From Gemmatimonadaceae bacterium (GTDB lineage: Bacteria > Gemmatimonadota > Gemmatimonadetes > Gemmatimonadales > Gemmatimonadaceae), in contig JAICJQ010000001.1 of the NCBI GenBank assembly GCA_025928335.1, positions 30,320 to 94,319 on the forward strand: a stretch of DNA of 64,000 nt, written 5' to 3'. This document shows positions 1-34,691 of this stretch, piece by piece (the first letter of the stretch is position 1; every line of letters starts with the position of its first letter). The notes beneath the pieces are model-generated. The model was given only the letters and a program-made list of their open reading frames with translations, was not told the DNA's origin and did not search any database. Made by a program: the position numbers and the translations under genes.

Positions 1-384
1 CCAGCGATCTACCGCGAGCTATCGCTTCGGCGCGGCGTCTCATTCCCGACCGTGCCTTTCCGGTTTCGGCGCTACTTCGTGAGATGCGGCTGGAGCCGCC
101 GAGCTTCGTCCCCATTCGCCTTTCCCATTCAAGCATGGGACATGTTCAGCCACGTGCAATGGACCTATCGGCTCCTCGCGCGCGCGGACCACGAGCTCGT
201 GCGCCGGGCGAGTAAGGCCGTGGACTGGCTCGTCGAACAGGCGTCCGACTCGTCGAGCATCGTTGCGGTGACGCATGGCGGATTCCGTCGAATTCTCGAT
301 GCGCAACTCGTTGCGCGCGGGTGGACGCGTGGGTTCGCGAAAAAGAGCTACGCGAATTGGAGCGTCTGGTCGTACCGGACTTGA
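1..384 (+). CDS. Histidine phosphatase family protein, C-terminal fragment (truncated at window start)
   Basis: Frame open to the left edge; motif VAVTHGGFRRIL typical of the second catalytic His region of the phosphoglycerate mutase-like superfamily. Confidence 0.6.
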   Translation, partial: PAIYRELSLRRGVSFPTVPFRFRRYFVRCGWSRRASSPFAFPIQAWDMFSHVQWTYRLLARADHELVRRASKAVDWLVEQASDSSSIVAVTHGGFRRILDAQLVARGWTRGFAKKSYANWSVWSYRT

Positions 385-572
385 TCGCCGATCGAACGAT
401 CAATCGGCGCGACGCAGCGTGAGCGCGAGCGCTCGAGCGGATGTGACGGCGACCCTGACAGCCGCAACAACGCCAAGGGAGCGCATGGGCAGAGAGAAAA
501 TACTTTGCAGCCGCGATGTCGCGTGACGATGATCACGCCGCCGATCGTCTGGAATGAAACAGCTTTCCAGCC

Positions 573-1514
573 ATGCGCCAACGCACGCTCGTACTGACCA
601 TCGCACTCACCGCTTGCTCCTCGGCGAGCGACCCAAGCGCCTCGACGCCGGCCGATCAATCGGGCACGGCACCCGGTGCCGGCGCCAGGCTCGACCGGCG
701 ACCATTTCCGGACGACAACCCGTGGAACGCCGACGTCAGCACATCGGCGGTCGATCCCAACTCGGCGACACTTATCGCATCGTGCGGCGTCCGCAATCTC
801 CATCCGGATTTCGGTACTGTATGGGACGGTGCGCCGAATGGCATTCCGTACCTCGTCGTGAACTCCCGTCAAGCGAAAGTGCCCGTGACCTTCGACTACT
901 CTGACGAGAGCGACGCCGGCCCATATCCGATCCCGACGAACGCGCCGATCGAAGGCGGCTCGGGCTCCAGCGGCGATCGACACGTGCTCATCGTCGACGT
1001 CGACGCCTGGAAATTGTACGAGCTGTACGATGCGCATCCCATCAATGGCGGGACGAGCTGGCACGCCGGCTCCGGCGCGATCTTCGATCTATCGTCGAAC
1101 GCGCTGCGCCCCGCCGGATGGACGTCGGCGGATGCCGCCGGGCTTCCCATCTTCCCCGGCCTGGTGCGCTACGACGAAGCCGCGGAGAAGCACAGCATTC
1201 CGCATGCGTTGCGGTTCACGTGTCCCCGTACGCGGCGCGCATACGTCGCGCCGGCGCGGCATTACGCGAGCAGCGATACGAGCAGCAAGCTGCCCCCCAT
1301 GGGGATGCGCGTTCGGTTGCGCGCCGACTACGACACCAGCGGCTTCTCGCCCACCGTGCGCACAATTCTGCGCGCGATGATGAAGTACGGCATGCTCGTC
1401 GCCGATAACGGCTCCGGGTGGTTCGTGAGCGGCGCACCCGATCCGCGCTGGAACGACGACGATCTCGCGACGCTCGCCCGCGTGCCGTCCTCAGCGTTCG
1501 AAGTCATTCGTTAG
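573..1514 (+). CDS. Secreted/lipoprotein hypothetical protein
   Basis: 313 aa ORF; N-terminus MRQRTLVLTIALTACSS resembles a lipoprotein signal peptide. Confidence 0.7.
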   Translation: MRQRTLVLTIALTACSSASDPSASTPADQSGTAPGAGARLDRRPFPDDNPWNADVSTSAVDPNSATLIASCGVRNLHPDFGTVWDGAPNGIPYLVVNSRQAKVPVTFDYSDESDAGPYPIPTNAPIEGGSGSSGDRHVLIVDVDAWKLYELYDAHPINGGTSWHAGSGAIFDLSSNALRPAGWTSADAAGLPIFPGLVRYDEAAEKHSIPHALRFTCPRTRRAYVAPARHYASSDTSSKLPPMGMRVRLRADYDTSGFSPTVRTILRAMMKYGMLVADNGSGWFVSGAPDPRWNDDDLATLARVPSSAFEVIR

Positions 1515-1531
1515 CAACGACTCCGCTCCCC

Positions 1532-1547
1532 TACGTCAACTGACGTA
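1532..1547. promoter_or_regulatory. Palindrome TACGTCA-AC-TGACGTA, candidate operator upstream of the lipid locus
   Basis: Perfect 7-bp arms with 2-bp spacer in the 1515-1610 intergenic region. Confidence 0.4.
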
Positions 1548-1573
1548 TAGGGCCTGCTGGGCCCAAAACATAC

Positions 1574-1605
1574 CCTCCGCGTGACCCAAGCTCGTCACGC
1601 GGAGG
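1574..1605 (+). promoter_or_regulatory. Perfect 12-bp stem, 8-nt loop hairpin overlapping the Shine-Dalgarno of the desaturase
   Basis: CCTCCGCGTGAC-CCAAGCTC-GTCACGCGGAGG; the GGAGG at 1601-1605 lies 5 nt before ATG 1611. Confidence 0.65.
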
Positions 1606-1610
1606 AATTC

Positions 1611-2582
1611 ATGATCGAGTGTAGCGCGCCCCCGCCCCCGCCCCCGCCCCCCGCGGCGCTGTCACGACTGCGTCCCACCGACGCGGCCGGCGCGATTGTC
1701 GCGCTCTCGTGCACCGCCATCACCGCGAGCGCGGTCGCGCTCTCCCTGTCGTCGCGTTGGTGGGTCTGGGCCGCGGGTCAGCTCGTCCTCGCGCTCGCGC
1801 TGGTTCAGTGGTTTGCACTGCTCCACGAATGCGGACACGAGACGCTCTTCCGCAGCAAGTGGCTTCACGCCCCACTCGGCCAGTTGGCCGGCTTTTTCAC
1901 GCTCATTCCCTTCCGCAACTGGAAGAGTGTCCACCGCCGGCATCACAAGTGGACGGGGTGGCAAGACATCGATCCGACGACCGCAGCGCTGGTGCCGCGC
2001 GCGCTCGGGCGCGTTGAGCGGGCGCTCGTCAACATTGCCTGGCGGTGTTGGATTCCGTTGTTCTCAGTCATCTACCGTGTGAACAACTTCTGGAATTGGC
2101 GAAGGCTCAAGGCATTGTTCGAAAGGCCCGAGGAGAAGCGCGCACTCGCCGTGAATTCGGCGGGACTCCTCGCCGCGTACGTTTCCATCGTTGCGTGGCT
2201 CGGTCCGTCGACATCTCTGCGACTGTTCGGCGTTGCGCTGGCCATGACGTTCGCCGCCGAGGACCTGCTGATCCTCAGCCAGCACACGCATATCCCGCAG
2301 CAGCTGAGCGCCGGCGAGAGCGTGCGTCCGTTCCCGACGATCGAGCAGGAGACCTTCACACGCTCGCTCGTCTTTCCGCGTTGGCTGTCGGCGCTCCTGC
2401 TGCACATCGACGCGCACGAGCTGCACCACATGTATCCGTTCGTGCCCGGCTATCGCCTGGGCGAGGTGCAGTACGAGACGGAGAACGAAGTGGGCCTCCT
2501 CGCATGGATCAGGGGAGCGCACGCGCTGCCCGGTGAAACGCTGCTCTTCCACAACCGGCTCGAGACGGGCGCGGACATCTGA
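1611..2582 (+). CDS. Fatty acid desaturase family protein
   Basis: Histidine boxes HECGHE, HRRHH, HELHH; hydrophobic segments; SD GGAGG before ATG 1611 (the ORF track GTG at 1581 lies inside the hairpin). Confidence 0.85.
   Translation: MIECSAPPPPPPPPAALSRLRPTDAAGAIVALSCTAITASAVALSLSSRWWVWAAGQLVLALALVQWFALLHECGHETLFRSKWLHAPLGQLAGFFTLIPFRNWKSVHRRHHKWTGWQDIDPTTAALVPRALGRVERALVNIAWRCWIPLFSVIYRVNNFWNWRRLKALFERPEEKRALAVNSAGLLAAYVSIVAWLGPSTSLRLFGVALAMTFAAEDLLILSQHTHIPQQLSAGESVRPFPTIEQETFTRSLVFPRWLSALLLHIDAHELHHMYPFVPGYRLGEVQYETENEVGLLAWIRGAHALPGETLLFHNRLETGADI
1628..1653. repeat. CCCCCG hexanucleotide microsatellite encoding a poly-Pro run
   Basis: gcccccgcccccgcccccgccccccg in the sequence; encodes PPPPPPPP. 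Confidence 0.85.
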
Positions 2583-3169
2583 TGATGCGGCCCGACCCAC
2601 TTGCTGCCGCGCTGTTCCTCACCGCGGCGTTTGTTCTCGCGGGCCTCGCCCACTCGGCGTGGTTGCGAACCGCTCTGTCGCGAAGACTGACGATGCCGCT
2701 GGACGGCGGCGCGCGCTTTCGCGGACGACGCGTGTTTGGAGACAACAAGACCATACGCGGATTCGTCGTCATGGTGCCCGCATCGGCTGCTGCCTTCATG
2801 CTGATGTTCACGGTGATTGGTTGGTGGAACTCGGACGCGCTGGTGTCGCTCTGGCCGCTTTCCGTTGGCGAGTTCGCAGCCCTCGGGGCGCTGGCCGGAT
2901 TCGGCTTCATGGCCGGGGAGCTTCCGAACTCGTTCGTGAAGCGACAGCTCGACATCGCGCCGGGGCAGGCACCGGCCGGCGCATTCGCGACGACGGTCAG
3001 CTTCGTCGCCGATCGCATCGATTCGATTCTGGGAATGCTCATCGCCCTGTCTTGCGCAGTCGCTGTTCCGGCGATGACCTGGTTCTATGTGCTCCTCATT
3101 GGGCCAGGAATCCACTTCGCGTTCAGCGCGCTGCTTTACCGAATGGGCGTGAAGGCAAGGGCCGCATGA
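2582..3169 (+). CDS. CDP-archaeol synthase (CarS/DUF46)-like membrane protein
   Basis: GDNKTIRGF motif, PLDGGARFRGRRVFGDNKT, GFMAGELPNSFVKRQLDIAPG; multiple TM segments; start overlaps upstream stop. Confidence 0.75.
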   Translation: MMRPDPLAAALFLTAAFVLAGLAHSAWLRTALSRRLTMPLDGGARFRGRRVFGDNKTIRGFVVMVPASAAAFMLMFTVIGWWNSDALVSLWPLSVGEFAALGALAGFGFMAGELPNSFVKRQLDIAPGQAPAGAFATTVSFVADRIDSILGMLIALSCAVAVPAMTWFYVLLIGPGIHFAFSALLYRMGVKARAA

Positions 3170-5721
3170 CGGCGACGGCAACCCGCTCAGAGGTTCTCGA
3201 TCTCGCCGATTGCCACGATGTCGCGCTGGTCGGTGAGAAGGCGCACACGCTCGGTCGGTTGTTGCGCGCGGGATACAACGTGCCGCCCGGTGCGGTCCTG
3301 ACGGCGGAGGCGTTCGCCCGTCATCACAGTTGCGGCACTGCATGCGGCGCACTCGACGACTGCACGCTCGATTCGCTTGCGGCCGCGTCACCCAGCTTCG
3401 TGAGCGGCCCGGTCGTCGTACGGAGCTCGGCGATCGGCGAAGACGGCGCAGCGCAGTCGTTCGCCGGTCAGCTCGAATCAGTCCTGAACGTTCGCGACGC
3501 GGCCGCACTGGAGCGAGCGGTCCTTGTCGTATGGGCCTCGTACTCGTCTGATCGCGTGCAATTCTATCGGCAGGCACGCGGAGTCGCCGACGCGGGGATG
3601 GGCGTGATCGTGCAGCAGCAAGTGGAAGCGCGAGCGGCCGGCGTGATGTTCACCTCGACCGTCGAAGGCCACATGCTGGTGGAGCTCACCGCGGGCCTGG
3701 CGGATCGGTTGGTCGCTGGTGAAGTCGACGCCGAGCGCATCGTACTGAATCGCGCGGGTCACGCGCTCGTTCGCGACGACCACTCGGAGCGGATGAGCGA
3801 GGATGTCATCGCCCAGCTGCATCGTCTGGCGCTGTCGCTCGAGCGAGAGCTTGGCGGACCGCAGGATGTCGAATGGGCGTTGGCCGCAAACGGCATCGTG
3901 TACGTGGTGCAGTCGCGCGCGATCACGGCGCCGGTGAGCGTGGCATCACTCATCGGCGAGACGGTTCCGGTTTCCGTACGACGTGTGGCTTGGTCGAACG
4001 CGAACATCAACGAGAACTACCCGCGCCCGGTCACACCGCTGCTCTACTCGATCGCCACCGCGGGCTACGCGAATTACTTCCGCAACCTGACGGTGGCCTT
4101 CGGAGTTGCGGAGTGGCGGATCGAAGCGATGGAGCGGGCGTTCCGGCGGATCATCGGCGCGCATGGCGCCCGGATGTACTACAACCTGTCGGCCATTCAT
4201 TCCGTGCTGCGCCTCGCACCGTTCGGACGAGCGCTCGCCGCGTCGTTCGACGAATTTGTCGGCGCGGACGGACGCGATGTCAAAACAGAAACGCCGCGAT
4301 CGGTTTCCACCGCGGGGCAGGTTCTCGAGGCGGCGAGGATCGTCGCGCGCGCCGGCTGGCATTTCGCCACACTCGACCAGCGAGTCCGTCGATTCGAGCG
4401 CCGCGCGGATGACTTCGCGACGAGAGCCGACCCGGCCCGGTTGGCTGGCCTTACCAACACTGAGCTCGGTGAGCTCATCGCTGAATTCATGGACATTCGG
4501 CGACGACATTGGGTCGACGCGTCGCTCGCCGATGCGGCTTCAATGCTGTGCTATGGCGCACTCGCCGGACTGTTGCGTCGCGCGTATGCCGGGACGGAGC
4601 GCAACGACATACATACGTCGCTATTGAAGGCCATTCCTGGTGTCGTCAGCGGCGAGCCGGTCCTAGCGCTGTGGGAGCTGTCGCGCGCCGTCCGCGCCGA
4701 TCGCCGGCTCCACGGTGTTGTCGAGCGTGAGTCGCCGAACAAGGTCATGGAGGTCGTGGCGACTGATGAACGATTCGCGAGTTTCCATCGCGGTCTGACA
4801 AAGTATCTCGACGACTGGGGTTTTCGCTGTTCCGAAGAACTGATGCTCGACACGCCGAGCTTTCAGGAAGACCCCGCGCCGGTTATCGACATGCTGCGTG
4901 CGTACGCGCGGGTCGAAGGGCCGTCGCCCGCGGAGTCGATGCGCCACCAGGCGGCGGAGCGCGAGCTGGAGACGTCGCGAGTGCTCGAAGAGTTGCGCGG
5001 GCGTTTGGTGTCGCGTCGCCTACCCGTTGGATACGCCGCGATCGTGCGCGCGCTGCTTCCGCGAACGCACGCCGCCATACGCTACCGAGAACGGGTTCGT
5101 CTGAAGCAGGCATTGCTGTATTCGCGCTGCCGGCGGATCGTGCTCGCGTTGGGCGAGGCGCTGATGACTCGCGAGATGATTGCGCGCGCGGACGACGTCT
5201 TTTTTCTCACGGCCGACGAGTTGACCGAGGCGGCATCCGGCGGCGCCTTCCTCCCCGCGGCGACGAGTGCTGTGGTCGCCGTCCGGCGAGCCGAGTACGA
5301 ACGGGCATCGGCGTTGAATCCGCCGGACGCGTTCACGCTGGCTGAGGGAGAGTATTTCTCTCCATGCGCGGCGCGACCCGTGGCGCCCGACGAAAGTGAC
5401 GCCCCGATGCGGGGGATGTCGGCATGTGGCGGCCATGCGCGCGGACGCGCAACGATTCTCTCGAGCGCAACCGAAGCCGAGCGGCTCGCCGCGGGCGATA
5501 TCCTCGTTACGCGACAGACGGATCCAGGGTGGGCTCCAGTCTTCTTTCTCATCTCCGGACTCGTCATCGAGCGCGGCGGGATGCTGTCGCATGGCGCGAT
5601 CATCGCGCGCGAGTTCGGCATTCCATGCGTGGTTGGCGTGAAGAACGCCATGAAGCGGATTCCCAGCGGAGCCACGATCGAAGTGGACGGCGGCCGGGGA
5701 GCGGTCCATGTCGTCGACTGA
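3166..5721 (+). CDS. PEP/pyruvate-binding and mobile-His domain protein (rifampin phosphotransferase-like dikinase)
   Basis: PPDK_N-like N-terminus (VALVGEKAHTLGRLLRAGYNVPPG, VVRSSAIGEDGAAQSFAGQ) and C-terminal swivelling His domain (GGMLSHGAIIAREFGIPCVVG); ATG at 3166 overlaps preceding stop. Confidence 0.8.
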   Translation: MTATATRSEVLDLADCHDVALVGEKAHTLGRLLRAGYNVPPGAVLTAEAFARHHSCGTACGALDDCTLDSLAAASPSFVSGPVVVRSSAIGEDGAAQSFAGQLESVLNVRDAAALERAVLVVWASYSSDRVQFYRQARGVADAGMGVIVQQQVEARAAGVMFTSTVEGHMLVELTAGLADRLVAGEVDAERIVLNRAGHALVRDDHSERMSEDVIAQLHRLALSLERELGGPQDVEWALAANGIVYVVQSRAITAPVSVASLIGETVPVSVRRVAWSNANINENYPRPVTPLLYSIATAGYANYFRNLTVAFGVAEWRIEAMERAFRRIIGAHGARMYYNLSAIHSVLRLAPFGRALAASFDEFVGADGRDVKTETPRSVSTAGQVLEAARIVARAGWHFATLDQRVRRFERRADDFATRADPARLAGLTNTELGELIAEFMDIRRRHWVDASLADAASMLCYGALAGLLRRAYAGTERNDIHTSLLKAIPGVVSGEPVLALWELSRAVRADRRLHGVVERESPNKVMEVVATDERFASFHRGLTKYLDDWGFRCSEELMLDTPSFQEDPAPVIDMLRAYARVEGPSPAESMRHQAAERELETSRVLEELRGRLVSRRLPVGYAAIVRALLPRTHAAIRYRERVRLKQALLYSRCRRIVLALGEALMTREMIARADDVFFLTADELTEAASGGAFLPAATSAVVAVRRAEYERASALNPPDAFTLAEGEYFSPCAARPVAPDESDAPMRGMSACGGHARGRATILSSATEAERLAAGDILVTRQTDPGWAPVFFLISGLVIERGGMLSHGAIIAREFGIPCVVGVKNAMKRIPSGATIEVDGGRGAVHVVD

Positions 5722-6283
5722 GCTCGTCGTCGGGTACCTCGCCGAACGCGCCAGGCTAACTGTGTTCGTTCCACTCGCCTTGCTCGTCGCCGAAACGGCA
5801 TGGCTCGTCGCGCCCGAGTCCGCGCCGAGTGCGTTGGCGTTCGCGACGTGTGCGTCGCAGGCGCTGCTTTTGATCCTCGCGCTCCGCATCTGGGATGACC
5901 TGCAGGACCGCGAGCGCGACGCGAGGCGTCATCCGGACCGGGTGACAGTTCGCGCGCACAGCACTGCACCGCTCGTTGGGCTCAGCTCCGTCCTTGCCGT
6001 CAGCGGAACGCTTTCGTTGATGCGCGCGACGGTTCCTTTACTACGAGTCACCATGCTCGCCGCGATCGTGGTCGGCTTGCTCGTTTGGTATCGCGCCCGT
6101 CCAGAGGCGCCATCGCGCATGGCGAGCGTGGTGCTCCTCGCGAAATACCCGGCGCTGGCGATCCTGCTTGCCCCGAGGCTCGGCGACCTGGCGCCAGTGC
6201 GCGCCGCAATCAGCGCCGGTGCGCTCTACGCCATCGCTTGCACCTACGAGTTCATCGAAGACAAATCCCGAGGTATCTCATGA
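5708..6283 (+). CDS. UbiA-like prenyltransferase family membrane protein
   Basis: Multi-TM; RIWDDLQDRERDARRHPDR resembles the UbiA Asp-rich motif; overlaps the upstream gene. Confidence 0.6.
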   Translation: MSSTELVVGYLAERARLTVFVPLALLVAETAWLVAPESAPSALAFATCASQALLLILALRIWDDLQDRERDARRHPDRVTVRAHSTAPLVGLSSVLAVSGTLSLMRATVPLLRVTMLAAIVVGLLVWYRARPEAPSRMASVVLLAKYPALAILLAPRLGDLAPVRAAISAGALYAIACTYEFIEDKSRGIS

Positions 6284-7266
6284 CTGCCATGGCAACGCCT
6301 GCTTCGCTGCCGGTCGTCGACTCGCACGAACCGGCGTCCCGGTTCGAGTACGTGGCCTGCTACCTCTGCGGCGCCGACGACGCGGATCCATTCATCACCG
6401 CGCAAGACGATTACACCGGGAAGCCGGGGCGATTCACCTTTGTCGTCTGCCGGCGGTGCGGGCTGCGCTATCAGAATCCGCGGCTCACGATCGACGAGAT
6501 CAAGTTCTTCTACGACGACGAGTACATCGCGCACCGCAAGAAGACGGACTGGGGCGTGCTCACCGGCTTCTTCAACTGGGCGATGAGCCGGCACGACCGC
6601 CAGAAGGACGCGATCGTCAGCCGGTTTGTGCCGCTCGGAGAACGAAGTGAAGTGTTGGACGTCGGATGCGCGGTCGGCACGTTCCTCCAACAGCTTCGCT
6701 CGCGGTACGGCGTCGGTGCGACCGGCGTCGACTTCAAGGACCTGAGCGCCAGTCCATCGCTGAGCGGCGTCGATTTCCGCTGCGGGTTGTTCTACGAGCA
6801 GGAGTTCGGCCAGAGGCGCTTCGACTTGATAACGATGTGGCACTTCCTCGAGCACGACTATGACCCAATGCGCACGTTGGGCACGGCGCGCGAGCTATTG
6901 AGCAATGATGGACGGTTGGTCATCGAAGTGCCGCGGCTCGACAGCATGACCTTTCGGATGTTCGGACGCCGCTGGCCCGGCCTGCAGGCGCCCCAACACA
7001 CCGTGCTGTTCGACAAGCGATCGCTCCTCGCCGCGGTGGACGCCGCCGGGCTCGAGGTCGTCGAGTATCTCCCGTACGGCGCGTTTCCGGCGTTTTTCTA
7101 TTTCTTTGCCGGAACCGCGTTCACGATGCTCCGAGGCAAGGGCCTCGACCTGCACAAGGCGATTTATCCGTACTTCATCGGACAGATCCTCATGTCGCCG
7201 GTTCTCGCACTCGAGAAGCAGCTCAACTTCGCGATGCAAACGGTCGTCTGCCGGAGGCGCGCGTGA
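6280..7266 (+). CDS. Class I SAM-dependent methyltransferase with N-terminal zinc-ribbon-like Cys4
   Basis: CYLCG...CRRCGLRYQNP, VLDVGCAVGTFLQ, MWHFLEHDYDP; ATG overlaps upstream stop. Confidence 0.8.
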   Translation: MTAMATPASLPVVDSHEPASRFEYVACYLCGADDADPFITAQDDYTGKPGRFTFVVCRRCGLRYQNPRLTIDEIKFFYDDEYIAHRKKTDWGVLTGFFNWAMSRHDRQKDAIVSRFVPLGERSEVLDVGCAVGTFLQQLRSRYGVGATGVDFKDLSASPSLSGVDFRCGLFYEQEFGQRRFDLITMWHFLEHDYDPMRTLGTARELLSNDGRLVIEVPRLDSMTFRMFGRRWPGLQAPQHTVLFDKRSLLAAVDAAGLEVVEYLPYGAFPAFFYFFAGTAFTMLRGKGLDLHKAIYPYFIGQILMSPVLALEKQLNFAMQTVVCRRRA

Positions 7267-8057
7267 GCCGCCTCGTTCTCTGGGCGCGCGTCACCGTGAC
7301 GTTCGTCGTAATGACCATCGGCGCGCTCGTGATGCTTCTCGTCGCGCTACCGACGCTCTTTCTGGCACGGCGTTTTTACTCCGAGGTAATGGCCCGCACA
7401 CTCGGCGCACTCGTGTTGCGACTCTGGGGCGTGCGCTATCGCGTCCACGGTTCGGCACAGCCGCCGTCGCGGCAAACGGTCTACATCGCCAACCACAGCT
7501 CGACGATCGACTTGTTCGTGTTGATCGCGCTCGGGCTTCCGCGGACACGTTTCTTCCTGAGCGGCTTCCTGCGCAGGATGCCACCGATCGGGATTGTCGG
7601 CGGCCTGATTCGAATATTCTGGACCGTCCCGCAGGAATTCCCCAATCAGCGTCGCGCGATCTTCAAGCGCGCCGCGCGCATCCTGCGCGAGACGGGCGAC
7701 TCGGTGTTCCTCAGTCCAGAGGGCCAACGCGTCACGACCGGCGAGATCGGACGCTTCAACAAGGGCGCCTTCCACCTCGCGACGAGTCTCGGCGCTCCGA
7801 TCGTGCCGATGTACTTCTCGAGTCCTCGCGCGATCGATCCCGGTATGGGCTACGACGCCAAACCGGGCGCGCTCGACGTCCACTTTCTTCCGCCGATCGA
7901 TACCAGTCTCTGGACCGTCGGTGACGTCGAACGCCACAGGGACGAGATTCGCGCGCTCTACGTTCGAGTCCATGACGAGATGCGGCGCACCGCCATTTTG
8001 CCGGCCTCGTTGAATCTTGCCGAGGACGCGCCTCTGATGGAGGAAGCGCTCGCATGA
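7263..8057 (+). CDS. 1-acyl-sn-glycerol-3-phosphate acyltransferase (PlsC-like)
   Basis: NHSSTIDLFVL (NHX4D) and FLSPEGQRVTTGEIGRFNKGAFHLA. Confidence 0.85.
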   Translation: MSRLVLWARVTVTFVVMTIGALVMLLVALPTLFLARRFYSEVMARTLGALVLRLWGVRYRVHGSAQPPSRQTVYIANHSSTIDLFVLIALGLPRTRFFLSGFLRRMPPIGIVGGLIRIFWTVPQEFPNQRRAIFKRAARILRETGDSVFLSPEGQRVTTGEIGRFNKGAFHLATSLGAPIVPMYFSSPRAIDPGMGYDAKPGALDVHFLPPIDTSLWTVGDVERHRDEIRALYVRVHDEMRRTAILPASLNLAEDAPLMEEALA

Positions 8058-9847
8058 CTTACGCCAACCTCATCGATGTTCTTCGCGATCGGGCGCGGGC
8101 GCGACCAACCGACCGCGCGTTCACCTTCCTTCCCGATGGAGAGTCGGAAGGCGAAACGCTGACCTATGGTCAACTCGACGCCAAGGCGCGCTCCATCGCC
8201 GCCTCGCTCGCCATGCATGGCCTCATCCCCGGCGAGCGTGCGCTCCTCCTCTATCCCCCGGGGCTCGAGTTCATCGCTGCGTTCTTCGGCTGCCTGTATG
8301 CCGGGATCATCGCCGTGCCGGCGTATCCTCCGCAGCCGTCGCAGATCACGCGCACGCTGCCGCGTCTCCTCAGCATCCTTGCTGACGCCGACGTCGCCAT
8401 TGTGTTGTGCGACGCGACCGTCTCGCGAGCGGGGAAGACGATGTCCGCGCACGCGCCAGCGCTCACCAACGTTCCTTGGCTATCCACCGACCGACTTGGC
8501 GGGTTGCACGCCGACGACTGGAACGAGAGTAAAATCGCGTCCGACCATCTCGCCTTTCTGCAATACACCTCGGGGTCCACCGCATCGCCGCGCGGTGTGA
8601 TGGTGAGCCACGCAAACCTGCTACACAACCTGGCCTACGCGCGTCAGCAGGGCAGGAACGGCGACGACACGATTTCCGTCTCGTGGTTGCCTGTCATCCA
8701 TGACATGGGCCTGATCGAAGGCGTGCTTCAGCCGATCTTTGCCGGCTACCCGGCGCACCTCATGGCGCCCGCGTCCTTTCTTCAGCGTCCTATGCGATGG
8801 TTGCGGGCGATCAGTCGCTACCGGGCGACGAACAGCGGCGCGCCGAACTTCGCCTACGACCTCTGTGTGCGCAAAGTGAGCGACGATCAATTGCGCGAGC
8901 TCGATCTCTCGTCGTGGCGTGTTGCCTACAACGGCGCCGAGCCGATTCGTTCCGAAACGCTTGTCTCGTTCTACGACCGGTTTCGCAGCGCCGGCTTTCA
9001 TTGGAAGTCATTCTTTCCCGTCTATGGCCTGGCTGAATCGACGCTGCTCGTTTCGACCGGCAATCAGGAGTATGAGCCGGTCGTTCGCGACGCGGACGCG
9101 GAGCAACTCGCGGATGGGCGCATCGTCGCACCGGCGTTCGGATCGACCGTGAAGACACTCGTCTCGAGTGGTCCGCACACCTTCGGTACGCGCATCATCA
9201 TCGTCGATCCGACGACCGCCGTACCGTGCGCCGACGGCGACGTCGGCGAGATCTGGGTGTCCTCACCGAGCGTAGCGCAGGGGTACTGGCGTCGAGACCT
9301 CTCGACCGCCGAGATCTTCCGTGCTCGCCTGGCCAATGGCGCCGGCCCGTTCCTCCGAACCGGCGACCTCGGCGCGATGATCGACGGCGAGCTGTTCGTC
9401 ACCGGGCGAGCGAAGGACGTCATTGTACTTCGCGGCTACAAATACTATCCCCAGGACATCGAACTGACGGTGGAGCGGCAGCACCCGGCGATCCGCGCGG
9501 GGTGCGTCGCGGCGTTCGCGCTCGACGGTGGTGATGGAGAGACCGTCGGCGTGGTGATGGAGCTCGACCCGCGTCAACTGCCGATCGATCGGGAGAGCAG
9601 ACAGCGCACCTTCACCGAGATTGTCGAGGCGGTGCGTGCCGCAGTCGCGACGGAACACGGCGTCATGTTGTCGGTTGTCGCGATGGCGATGGTCGGCGGT
9701 GTTCCGAAGACATCGAGCGGCAAGCTGCGTCGCAGCGCGTGCCGCGACGCGCTCACCGATGGCTCGCTCGAAGAGCTGGCTCGATGGACAGCCGTCGCCA
9801 CGTTCGACAGCCGGTCAGCCGTGGATTTGTTGAGGACCGGAACATGA
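8054..9847 (+). CDS. Fatty acyl-AMP ligase (FAAL)
   Basis: LLLYPPGLEFIAAFFGCLYAGIIAVPAYPP, YTSGSTASPRGVMVSHANL, LRTGDLGAMIDGELFVTGRAKDVIVLRGYKYYPQDIE. Confidence 0.9.
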   Translation: MTYANLIDVLRDRARARPTDRAFTFLPDGESEGETLTYGQLDAKARSIAASLAMHGLIPGERALLLYPPGLEFIAAFFGCLYAGIIAVPAYPPQPSQITRTLPRLLSILADADVAIVLCDATVSRAGKTMSAHAPALTNVPWLSTDRLGGLHADDWNESKIASDHLAFLQYTSGSTASPRGVMVSHANLLHNLAYARQQGRNGDDTISVSWLPVIHDMGLIEGVLQPIFAGYPAHLMAPASFLQRPMRWLRAISRYRATNSGAPNFAYDLCVRKVSDDQLRELDLSSWRVAYNGAEPIRSETLVSFYDRFRSAGFHWKSFFPVYGLAESTLLVSTGNQEYEPVVRDADAEQLADGRIVAPAFGSTVKTLVSSGPHTFGTRIIIVDPTTAVPCADGDVGEIWVSSPSVAQGYWRRDLSTAEIFRARLANGAGPFLRTGDLGAMIDGELFVTGRAKDVIVLRGYKYYPQDIELTVERQHPAIRAGCVAAFALDGGDGETVGVVMELDPRQLPIDRESRQRTFTEIVEAVRAAVATEHGVMLSVVAMAMVGGVPKTSSGKLRRSACRDALTDGSLEELARWTAVATFDSRSAVDLLRTGT

Positions 9848-12510
9848 CCTTGGCGGCACGGCCCGCACCAGGCGAGGTGCGTGAGCGAATAACGATCATT
9901 GTCGCGTCAATCGTGCGAACACCGCCGCAGTGGATCGCTCCGTCCAGCACATTCGCGTCGCTGGGGCTGGATTCGCTCGGCGCCGTCGAGCTCATCGCCG
10001 CCATCGAAGACGAGTTGGCGGTCCAGCTGCCGCTCACCGCGGCGCACGACTATCCGTCCATCGAGGCGCTCGCTCGATTCATCGAGCAGGGCGCGACCGG
10101 CGACGGATCGCCGAGCGGCCGCGACGCGATGCTCGCGGATGCCGTGCTTCCGGCCGACATTCGACCGTGCGCGGGCCGCGCCGCCGCGGTGTGCGACGCA
10201 CGCGACCTCCTGCTCACCGGGGCAACCGGGTTTCTCGGTGCCTATCTCCTCCGCATACTGCTCGACGAGACGGCGGCCGAGGTTCATTGCGCGGTGCGAT
10301 CTTATACCGGCGGTATGGAGCGCGTCCTCAACAATCTCGCGACGTACGACCTCGTTCGTCCGGGCGACCGCTCTCGGATCCACGTCGTTCACGCGGACCT
10401 CACAGAGCCGTTGCTCGGAATGTCTCCCGGTGAATTCGATTTGTTCGGTGAACGAATCGACGCCGTCTATCACTGCGGCGCGACAGTGAACTGGGTGTAC
10501 GGCTATGAACGGCTACGTGCCTCGAACGTGCTCGGAACGCGCGAGCTGTTGCGTCTCGCATCCGCCGGCGCGAAGCCCTTTCACTTCGTCTCGAGCATCA
10601 GCGTGTGCCATTCGACGTCGGCGCCGGTGCAGGTTGACGAAGCGCTCGACGCGCTGCCATCGCTCGATGGGCTGCATCTGGGCTACGCGCAGAGCAAATG
10701 CGTCGCCGAAGCGCTCGTTCGGCAAGCGGCCGAGCGAGGCATCCCGGCGACAATCACTCGCCCGTCCTTGGTGACCGGTGACGCGCGCAGCGGACGATCC
10801 AACACCGACGACCTCACGTCGCGGCTGGTCGCCGGCTGCATTCGCATGAGCGCGGCCCCCGATCTCGACTGGCGAATGGATTGCGTGCCGGTCGATGAGA
10901 CAGCACGCGCCATCGTGCGCCTGACCCGTTCGCGCCGCGACGGATGTGAAGTGTATCACCTCCTCGCCGATCGGCCGCGTCACTGGCGGGAATGCGTCCT
11001 CTGGATGCGGCTCGCCGGGTACGACGTCGAATTGATACCGTACTCCGAGTGGTTGGATCGAGTCCTGCGGACGACGGAACTCGATCATCCGCTCTTCCCG
11101 CTTCGTGCATTCTTCGGAAGGAAGGTCGCCGATGAAGCGGGGTTGACGTTCCCTGAGTTGTTTGAGGAATCGCGTCTGCCACGAGTCGCGGCAGATCGCA
11201 CCCGAGCGGCGCGCGACAATGTCGGCGCCTTGCTGACGAACGTCGGCCCGACCGTGCTGGCGCGCTACTTCGACGACTACGTCGGTCGCGGCGTGATTCC
11301 GGATACTCCGCGATATCATGGATCAAACGGAAATGGTGCCGGGCCGGTCATATCGCACGAGTCTCTTGCCGCGGGGTTGTCGCGACATCTCGGACGAGAA
11401 GTGACGGTCCGCGCCGTCCAGCTGGAACCGGCGTTGAGCGACGAGAGCATCATTGCGGAGCTCACTGGATGGCGAAGCGGACCCGCGACGGGTCTGATGC
11501 GCGGCACCGTGTCGTACATCGATGATCGACGCGTGCCTGGCCTCTCGAAAATCTTCATCAAGGCGAAAACGTTGGACGCGCGATCAATCGAGGTGGCCGA
11601 GGCGCTCGCCGGGCTGGTCTCACCGGCGCTCGGACGCGAGATCGCCAGTAATCGCGACCGGCTTGGCGTCACTGGCTCCCATCTGCGCGAGCTCGCGATT
11701 TACGCGGACGACGATCCGCGGATCGTCACGCATCGCCCGGCTGCCTTGGCCATCGAGCGCGACGACGGTGCGCAGCGCTGGATTCTCGCGCTCGAAGCGA
11801 TCGACGACGCGGTACTCATCAACGCGGTGTCAACCACCGCGTGGACCAGCGAAGCGATCGAAGCCGCGCTCTGCGGAGCCGCCCAGATTCACGCGCGGTG
11901 GAGTAGTGGAAGCGCAGACGTCCCATCTTGCCTAGCAGCCGAGTGGCTTCCGCCGATTCGCGACGCCGCTTCGCGCACCGAGATGACGCCTCTCTGGCGC
12001 GCCCTCGCCGAACACGCTGCGTCGCGGCCGGCCTGGCGCGCCCCACGATTGCGCGCGATCCACGCCGATCTCGTGCGCGATGTCGCGCGTTGGTCGGGAG
12101 AGCTCGATACCGCGCCGCGCACGCTCATTCACAACGACTTCAACCCGCGGAATATCGCGATCCGTCGGCGCGACGGTCGTCTCGCCCTCTGCGCGTTCGA
12201 CTGGGAGCTGGCGACGATTGGCGCGCCGCAGCGCGATCTCGCCGAGTTGTTGTGCTTCGTGCTTCCGGCCAACGCCTCGCGAGACGACATTCGTGCGTGG
12301 GTCGAGCGATCGCGGGTGCTCTTTACCGAAGCGAGTCACCTCGTTATCGAACGCCAGGCGTGGGAGCGCGGCTTCTCGGCGGCCCTCTGCGACCTGCTCG
12401 TCGATCGGCTCGCGATGTTGGCGATGATCGATCGAGTGAGGCCGCAGAGGTTCCTGCCACGCGTCACGGCCGCGTGGCTGAACCTGTTCGAGTGCTTTTG
12501 TCCGGAGTAG
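9844..12510 (+). CDS. Acyl carrier domain - thioester reductase - aminoglycoside phosphotransferase-like fusion protein
   Basis: ACP motif LGLDSLGAVEL; NAD(P)-binding LLLTGATGFLGAYLL; C-terminal APH-like THIHNDFNPRN-type motif (TLIHNDFNPRNIAIRRRDGRLALCAFDWELATIG). Confidence 0.85.
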   Translation: MTLAARPAPGEVRERITIIVASIVRTPPQWIAPSSTFASLGLDSLGAVELIAAIEDELAVQLPLTAAHDYPSIEALARFIEQGATGDGSPSGRDAMLADAVLPADIRPCAGRAAAVCDARDLLLTGATGFLGAYLLRILLDETAAEVHCAVRSYTGGMERVLNNLATYDLVRPGDRSRIHVVHADLTEPLLGMSPGEFDLFGERIDAVYHCGATVNWVYGYERLRASNVLGTRELLRLASAGAKPFHFVSSISVCHSTSAPVQVDEALDALPSLDGLHLGYAQSKCVAEALVRQAAERGIPATITRPSLVTGDARSGRSNTDDLTSRLVAGCIRMSAAPDLDWRMDCVPVDETARAIVRLTRSRRDGCEVYHLLADRPRHWRECVLWMRLAGYDVELIPYSEWLDRVLRTTELDHPLFPLRAFFGRKVADEAGLTFPELFEESRLPRVAADRTRAARDNVGALLTNVGPTVLARYFDDYVGRGVIPDTPRYHGSNGNGAGPVISHESLAAGLSRHLGREVTVRAVQLEPALSDESIIAELTGWRSGPATGLMRGTVSYIDDRRVPGLSKIFIKAKTLDARSIEVAEALAGLVSPALGREIASNRDRLGVTGSHLRELAIYADDDPRIVTHRPAALAIERDDGAQRWILALEAIDDAVLINAVSTTAWTSEAIEAALCGAAQIHARWSSGSADVPSCLAAEWLPPIRDAASRTEMTPLWRALAEHAASRPAWRAPRLRAIHADLVRDVARWSGELDTAPRTLIHNDFNPRNIAIRRRDGRLALCAFDWELATIGAPQRDLAELLCFVLPANASRDDIRAWVERSRVLFTEASHLVIERQAWERGFSAALCDLLVDRLAMLAMIDRVRPQRFLPRVTAAWLNLFECFCPE

Positions 12511-34430: not shown

Positions 34431-34533
34431 TGCGGTACGGTGCGCCGCGGTAGGCCCGCCCGCAACCAGCCTGCGGTGAACGACAGCATTTGAGCGCCGA
34501 ACAGCGTCGCCGAACGGAACGGGGTAACGGAAC

Positions 34534-34691
34534 GGGGTCAGACTCCGTTTTGAAAACGGAGTCTGACCCCGCTGAAAAAACGGAGTCTGACCCCGCATAC
34601 GCAGTTAAGTCGTAAAGCACGAGCCTGAGGCCCGGTAAACGACGAAAAACGACGGAGTCCGCCCGTTCAAAAAGCGGAGTCTGACCCCGTT
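34534..34691. repeat. Array of GGAGTCTGACCCC palindromes (one perfect 37-nt palindrome plus two half copies)
   Basis: ggggtcagactccgtttt-g-aaaacggagtctgacccc (34534-34570); further cggagtctgaccccg copies near 34581 and 34675. Confidence 0.9.

Follow-up and report, generated by a model that had tools for sequence, protein, structure and literature searches.

A hairpin over the ribosome-binding site of a Gemmatimonadaceae desaturase operon: a candidate silencer of read-through RNA beneath a NarL-like box promoter

What might a perfect hairpin be doing over the Shine-Dalgarno (SD) sequence of the first gene of a lipid operon? In the window, i.e., the whole stretch of 64,000 nucleotides analyzed from the draft genome of a Gemmatimonadaceae bacterium (G000; ~79% completeness), positions 1574–1605 form the perfect inverted repeat CCTCCGCGTGAC-CCAAGCTC-GTCACGCGGAGG, which is followed by AATTC and then by ATG 1611, the first codon of a fatty acid desaturase gene heading a row of overlapping genes (Table 1). 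A sequence-only reading of this locus had described the repeat as two 12-bp arms around an N8 loop, with GGAGG ending the 3' arm 5 nt before the ATG, all of which was confirmed to the exact base, and had taken the hairpin for an RNA thermometer or a cis-acting translational switch in the mRNA of the operon, or else for a DNA operator with GTGAC/GTCAC half-sites. ATG 1611 is the likely start codon because it has a clear SD and the ortholog alignments begin near it; an in-frame GTG at 1581, within the hairpin, was also considered as the desaturase start and is unlikely. The desaturase has close orthologs in two other Gemmatimonadaceae genomes, G004 (71%; sister species in the same genus) and G064 (67%; same family), both of which are missing a polyproline stretch that is encoded here near the N-terminus by CCCCCG repeats (window positions 1629–1655).

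Table 1. Features of the desaturase operon and its upstream region (positions in the window)
Feature	Position	Strand	Remarks
Upstream tandem gene, lipoprotein-like	573..1514	+	No Pfam match; ends 17 bp before the box
7-2-7 palindromic box TACGTCA-AC-TGACGTA	1532..1547	+	Conserved; probable activator site, centre ~-43.5
-10 hexamer TACCCT	1571..1576	+	+24..+29 from box end; last 3 bases are the hairpin's first 3
Inverted repeat	Arms 1574-1585 and 1594-1605 (12 bp each), loop 1586-1593 (8 nt)	+	
Predicted transcription start	~1583 (range ~1582-1586)	+	From -10 position and leaderless genes; near end of 5' arm
Shine-Dalgarno GGAGG	1601..1605	+	End of hairpin 3' arm; spacer AATTC 1606-1610
Fatty acid desaturase, operon gene 1	1611..2582	+	PF00487, E 3.3e-26
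Rest of the overlapping gene row after the desaturase	2582..9847	+	
CDP-archaeol synthase-like	2582-3169	+	
PEP synthase-like	about 3166-5721	+	
UbiA-like	5708-6283	+	
Methyltransferase	6280-7266	+	
Acyltransferase	7263-8057	+	
AMP-binding acyl ligase	8054-9847	+	

Apart from its placement, a 12-bp perfect hairpin is not rare in this genome: 34 perfect hairpins with arms of at least 12 bp and loops of 3–12 nt were counted in an 846 kb sample of the 4.5 Mb genome (roughly one per 25 kb, well above a Markov expectation of ~2.3 for the whole sample), and 30 of these 34 are intergenic, mostly lying shortly 3' of stop codons. The rare feature is the placement over the SD, as among 681 sampled gene starts (taken from a crude gene caller of our own) ATG 1611 is the only one whose SD lies within an uninterrupted helix of at least 12 bp. 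The hairpin core, CCGCGTGAC-N(2-20)-GTCACGCGG, has a single occurrence in the 4.5 Mb genome, and the fold of 1540–1640 reaches -40.3 kcal/mol (z = -3.3; 0 of 200 shuffles equally good), even if, judged by plain upstream folding energy, the desaturase leader ranks only 9th of the 681 and is not the most structured one. A different palindrome family repeated in this genome, with the core GGGGTCAGACTCCG / CGGAGTCTGACCCC, was seen at 34533-34571 of the window and in three further loci (L089, 19793-19845; L120, 5274-5316; L110, 2290-2330), and is possibly REP-like or IS-related.

What the hairpin could do depends on where the RNA begins. A consensus sigma-70 scan found no promoter, and a candidate pair consisting of TATAGG (1546) as the -10 and CTGACG (1540) as the -35 was dropped once a hexamer at a fixed distance of +24 from a palindromic box had emerged. 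Of the Gemmatimonadaceae genomes with a close ortholog, all three, including the present one, have this box ahead of the operon; in G004 it reads TACGTTAACTGACGTA (one mismatch) at nearly the same distance to the start codon as here, and in G064 the only exact copy in the genome (TACGTCANNTGACGTA) lies ~340 bp upstream of the desaturase. Searching 179 genomes of the family for TACGTCANNTGACGTA returned 35 sites in 26 genomes, with 0 for a reversed-pattern control. When hexamers were counted per offset from the box end in both directions (35 boxes, 70 sides), xAnnnT stood at exactly +24 on 33 of the 70 box sides (0–5 at other offsets) and TAnnnT on 9 of 70 (0–2 elsewhere); the +24 pattern had first been noticed at four sites and was then tested on the full box set, and the two near-matches of the box in the same-genus genomes G001 and G003 fit it as well. 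These counts argue strongly for the promoter part of the model proposed below, i.e., a putative promoter made of the box and a -10 at a fixed distance.

Removal of duplicate flanks left 32 such promoters, which favour C before and T after the box and among which no -35 consensus was found. The class can be written as TACGTCANNTGACGTA, 23 nt and xAnnnT, and its ~32 promoters comprise positions 1532-1576 of the window along with L128, L129, L134-L157 and L159-L166; the genes 3' of them are largely secreted, lipoprotein-like or outer-membrane ones, one being Omp85. Outside the family-level search, a class-wide sample contained the box plus -10 in 3 of 119 genomes, all three of them Gemmatimonadaceae. 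Boxes of the source genome with at least three mismatches showed no -10 enrichment, so the box is a strict one. The gene adjoining box L128 was considered as a homolog of the gene upstream of the present box (573-1514) and rejected, as the two are not homologous. The literature searched yielded no mapped promoters for Gemmatimonadaceae and nothing usable on the box sequence.

Leaderless genes within this promoter class allow the transcription start to be placed: the ATG follows the -10 at a distance of 7 nt in L154 (in both directions) and of 10 nt in L155, so the start was set 7 nt after the -10, and for the desaturase operon we infer a start at ~1583. It is thus very probable that the operon's own promoter starts its RNA inside the hairpin, which had been named beforehand by the sequence-only reading as refuting its own proposal and which comparative promoter geometry now makes the likelier case. 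As this start falls within the 5' arm, the operon's own mRNA would keep 3 of the 12 arm bases and be without the other 9. At other box promoters, hairpins near the start are short (9 bp in one, otherwise at most 7 bp), so the hairpin does not belong to the promoter class; the 9-bp one, a perfect GGGTGAGAG-TGACC-CTCTCACCC, lies directly after the -10 on the reverse box side of L147 (G008:C6), and the predicted start there would also be inside a hairpin.

In the folding model, the SD is sequestered in any RNA that contains both arms: its computed unpaired probability is ~0.001 for RNA starts at or before 1573, compared with ~0.27 for a start at 1583, and opening it costs 13.5 kcal/mol in read-through RNA against 3.0 kcal/mol in RNA from 1583 (for the wider ribosome site, ~21-24 against 4.5 kcal/mol). 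The RNA from 1583 retains moderate structure, in which the SD pairs with the C-rich proline codons. The claim that the hairpin sequesters the SD in mRNA therefore stands for RNA that carries both arms and falls for the predicted own mRNA starting at ~1583.

The hairpin itself is species-specific among the relatives compared. It is missing upstream of the G004 and G064 desaturases, the former having a stem of 5 bp at most at a similar place, and 0 of 21 other desaturase upstream regions contain a matching one. Further orthologs of the desaturase occur in Acidobacteria, Planctomycetes and Gammaproteobacteria, and the distribution of its relatives L041-L062 (46-67% identity; Acidobacteria, Planctomycetes, Gammaproteobacteria and Massilia MAGs or genomes) would suggest a horizontal spread of the gene or of the cluster. 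Several of the acidobacterial orthologs (L044, L045, L061 and L062) have in common, ahead of the gene, direct repeats of the TTCCTCACA / TTCTTCACA type, possibly a different regulatory site.

The neighbouring gene differs as well. Here, the lipoprotein-like gene lies in tandem 17 bp from the box, and a terminator scan found none between it and the box, which makes read-through RNA plausible and the upstream gene its probable source. In G004, the homolog of this gene (L034; 77.6% DNA identity by blastn, minus orientation) is inverted, i.e., divergent and transcribed away from the operon, with no tandem upstream gene there, so RNA may enter the operon here, unlike in G004.

The explanation that we consider best, with a probability of about one in two, is a hairpin of the phage T4 gene e type silencing read-through RNA under an activator-type, NarL-like 7-2-7 box promoter. 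The promoter of the operon would be one of class II and of the activator type, with the 16-bp box, no recognisable -35 and the -10, and its RNA, starting close to where the 5' arm ends, would begin as GACCCAAGCUCGUCACGCGGAGGAAUUC-AUG and have its SD available. RNA entering from the tandem upstream gene would, on the other hand, have both arms, fold into the 12-bp hairpin and hide the SD, and thus would not be translated into desaturase. The hairpin would then be a read-through silencer, reserving translation for RNA from the regulated promoter, and may have been selected for this. In favour of this explanation are the box conservation, the +24 spacing, the leaderless genes, the folding figures and the T4 gene e precedent, as well as a tandem upstream gene together with the hairpin here and a divergent homolog with no hairpin in G004. 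Against it are the occurrence of the hairpin in one species only, hence without covariation or conservation to indicate selection, the varying box-to-gene spacing (given the distant box of G064) and the SD being unpaired at only ~0.27 in RNA from 1583; low-level read-through may also be of no consequence to the cell. As for the history of the locus, it can be tentatively suggested, as a somewhat doubtful scenario, that the neighbouring gene, through an inversion, came to lie in tandem with a regulated lipid operon and that the lineage then gained a promoter-embedded hairpin making all read-through RNA untranslatable.

The same promoter placement that points to a silencer also puts the palindrome (~-9 to +23) exactly over the -10, the start and the early transcribed region, a classic position for a repressor, and a dimeric repressor might bind its GCGTGAC/GTCACGC half-sites, which are about two helical turns apart, with the SD overlap being incidental. 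Such a DNA operator is nevertheless unlikely, as the site has no second copy in the genome, GCGTGAC-N8-GTCACGC is missing from 19 relatives, the sister species' operon has no such site upstream, and the complementarity is perfect over all 12 bases including GGAGG, which is more than operators usually need. A comparably low probability is given to a neutral palindrome, i.e., a recent chance or template-switch product without function, tolerated as the normal mRNA starts inside it. Its species specificity, the fairly common occurrence of such perfect hairpins and the little counter-selection to be expected when RNA from 1583 leaves the SD free would all be in keeping with this; yet most such hairpins sit after stops, the usual place of terminators, this one covers the sole SD of its kind among the sampled starts, and its boundaries fall 3 bp into the -10 on one side and at the very end of the SD on the other.

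That the hairpin begins 60 nt 3' of the upstream gene's stop codon might suggest a 3'-end hairpin or terminator of that gene, all the more so as, of the 68 perfect hairpins of at least 9 bp that lie between genes in the sample, 50 sit within 80 nt after a stop. This is quite improbable: the plus strand has no U-tract (3 T in the 12-base tail against a median of 4), the loop is 8 nt instead of the usual 3-4, the scan calls the hairpin on the minus strand only, where no gene needs one, and the promoter box sits between the stop and the hairpin. The thermometer or cis-acting switch in the operon's normal mRNA, for which the full pairing of the SD in RNA holding both arms would speak, fares worst and is very improbable. 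Besides the predicted start inside the arm, the stem is far too stable, the cost of opening the SD with the full stem being 16.0 kcal/mol at 20 C and still 12.3 kcal/mol at 45 C, so that folding across temperatures gave no melting in the physiological range (in the minimum-energy fold, the stem is intact even at 65 C). Rfam covariance models gave 0 matches in positions 1-10000 of the window, and the comparison of orthologs likewise went against the switch, the hairpin being absent from the close as well as the more distant ones. What survives of the switch idea, and is partly supported, is a cis-acting block limited to read-through RNA.

Arrangements of this kind are known. In IS10/Tn10, RNA entering from outside folds so as to cover the start of the transposase, by means of a protective stem formed with the element's terminal sequence, whereas RNA from the element's own promoter does not; the present locus would likewise have read-through RNA that folds and own RNA that does not, although there is no sign of a mobile element here. 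The closest parallel to be drawn is the lysozyme gene e of phage T4, in which the long early RNA hides the SD and is translated ~100-fold less, while the late promoters lie within the 5' side of the inhibitory stem (PMC3014915). Similar leader hairpins are found in T4 soc, 49 and I-TevI, and the T4 hairpin is itself missing in some T4-like phages (PMC3014915). The desaturase locus resembles gene e in the SD being hidden in a long RNA, as far as folding tells, and in its own promoter lying in the 5' strand and giving a short RNA without that strand, as judged by comparative promoter geometry. It differs in being a chromosomal lipid-biosynthesis operon, in having a box promoter of the activator type where T4 has a late promoter, and in having a hairpin that is not kept in the close relatives G004 and G064. 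By this analogy, we infer that the hairpin's function may be of the T4 gene e type. RNA thermometers (ROSE, fourU and similar) also have the SD paired in a 5' hairpin, but the stem here is a perfect, GC-rich one of 12 bp with neither physiological melting nor an Rfam match, and most of its 5' arm is predicted to lie outside the main mRNA.

For the box, the nearest counterparts are the NarL 7-2-7 promoters of E. coli, i.e., napF, yeaR and ogt1052, with inverted heptamers at a 2-bp spacing (PMC4549865, PMC9314961), the ogt1052 site being a single one centred at -44.5, 32 bp upstream of the -10, with no good -35 (PMC9314961). The box described here is likewise a single site of inverted heptamers with a 2-bp gap, centred at ~-43.5, and, as at NarL/FixJ class II promoters, lies ~31-32 bp upstream of the -10 with no consensus -35, but its heptamers carry GTCA for CCCT (TACGTCA-AC-TGACGTA as opposed to the engineered NarL site TACCCCT-AA-AGGGGTA; PMC4549865, PMC9314961). 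Such geometry probably indicates the mode of action of the box and not which protein binds it, the source genome having 11 GerE-type domains, none of them tied to the box.

An SD-hiding hairpin noticed by eye tends to be taken for a switch. Here, locating the promoter by comparative genomics would reverse the meaning, as the hairpin would play no part in the normal mRNA and act on read-through RNA alone. Gemmatimonadaceae gain with this a well-defined promoter class that lends itself to testing (box, 23 nt and -10), found here before a lipid operon. If the somewhat doubtful inversion scenario is true, the operon would obey only its NarL-like box and the hairpin would be a chromosomal insulator of the T4 gene e type, under an envelope regulon of Gemmatimonadaceae not described so far.
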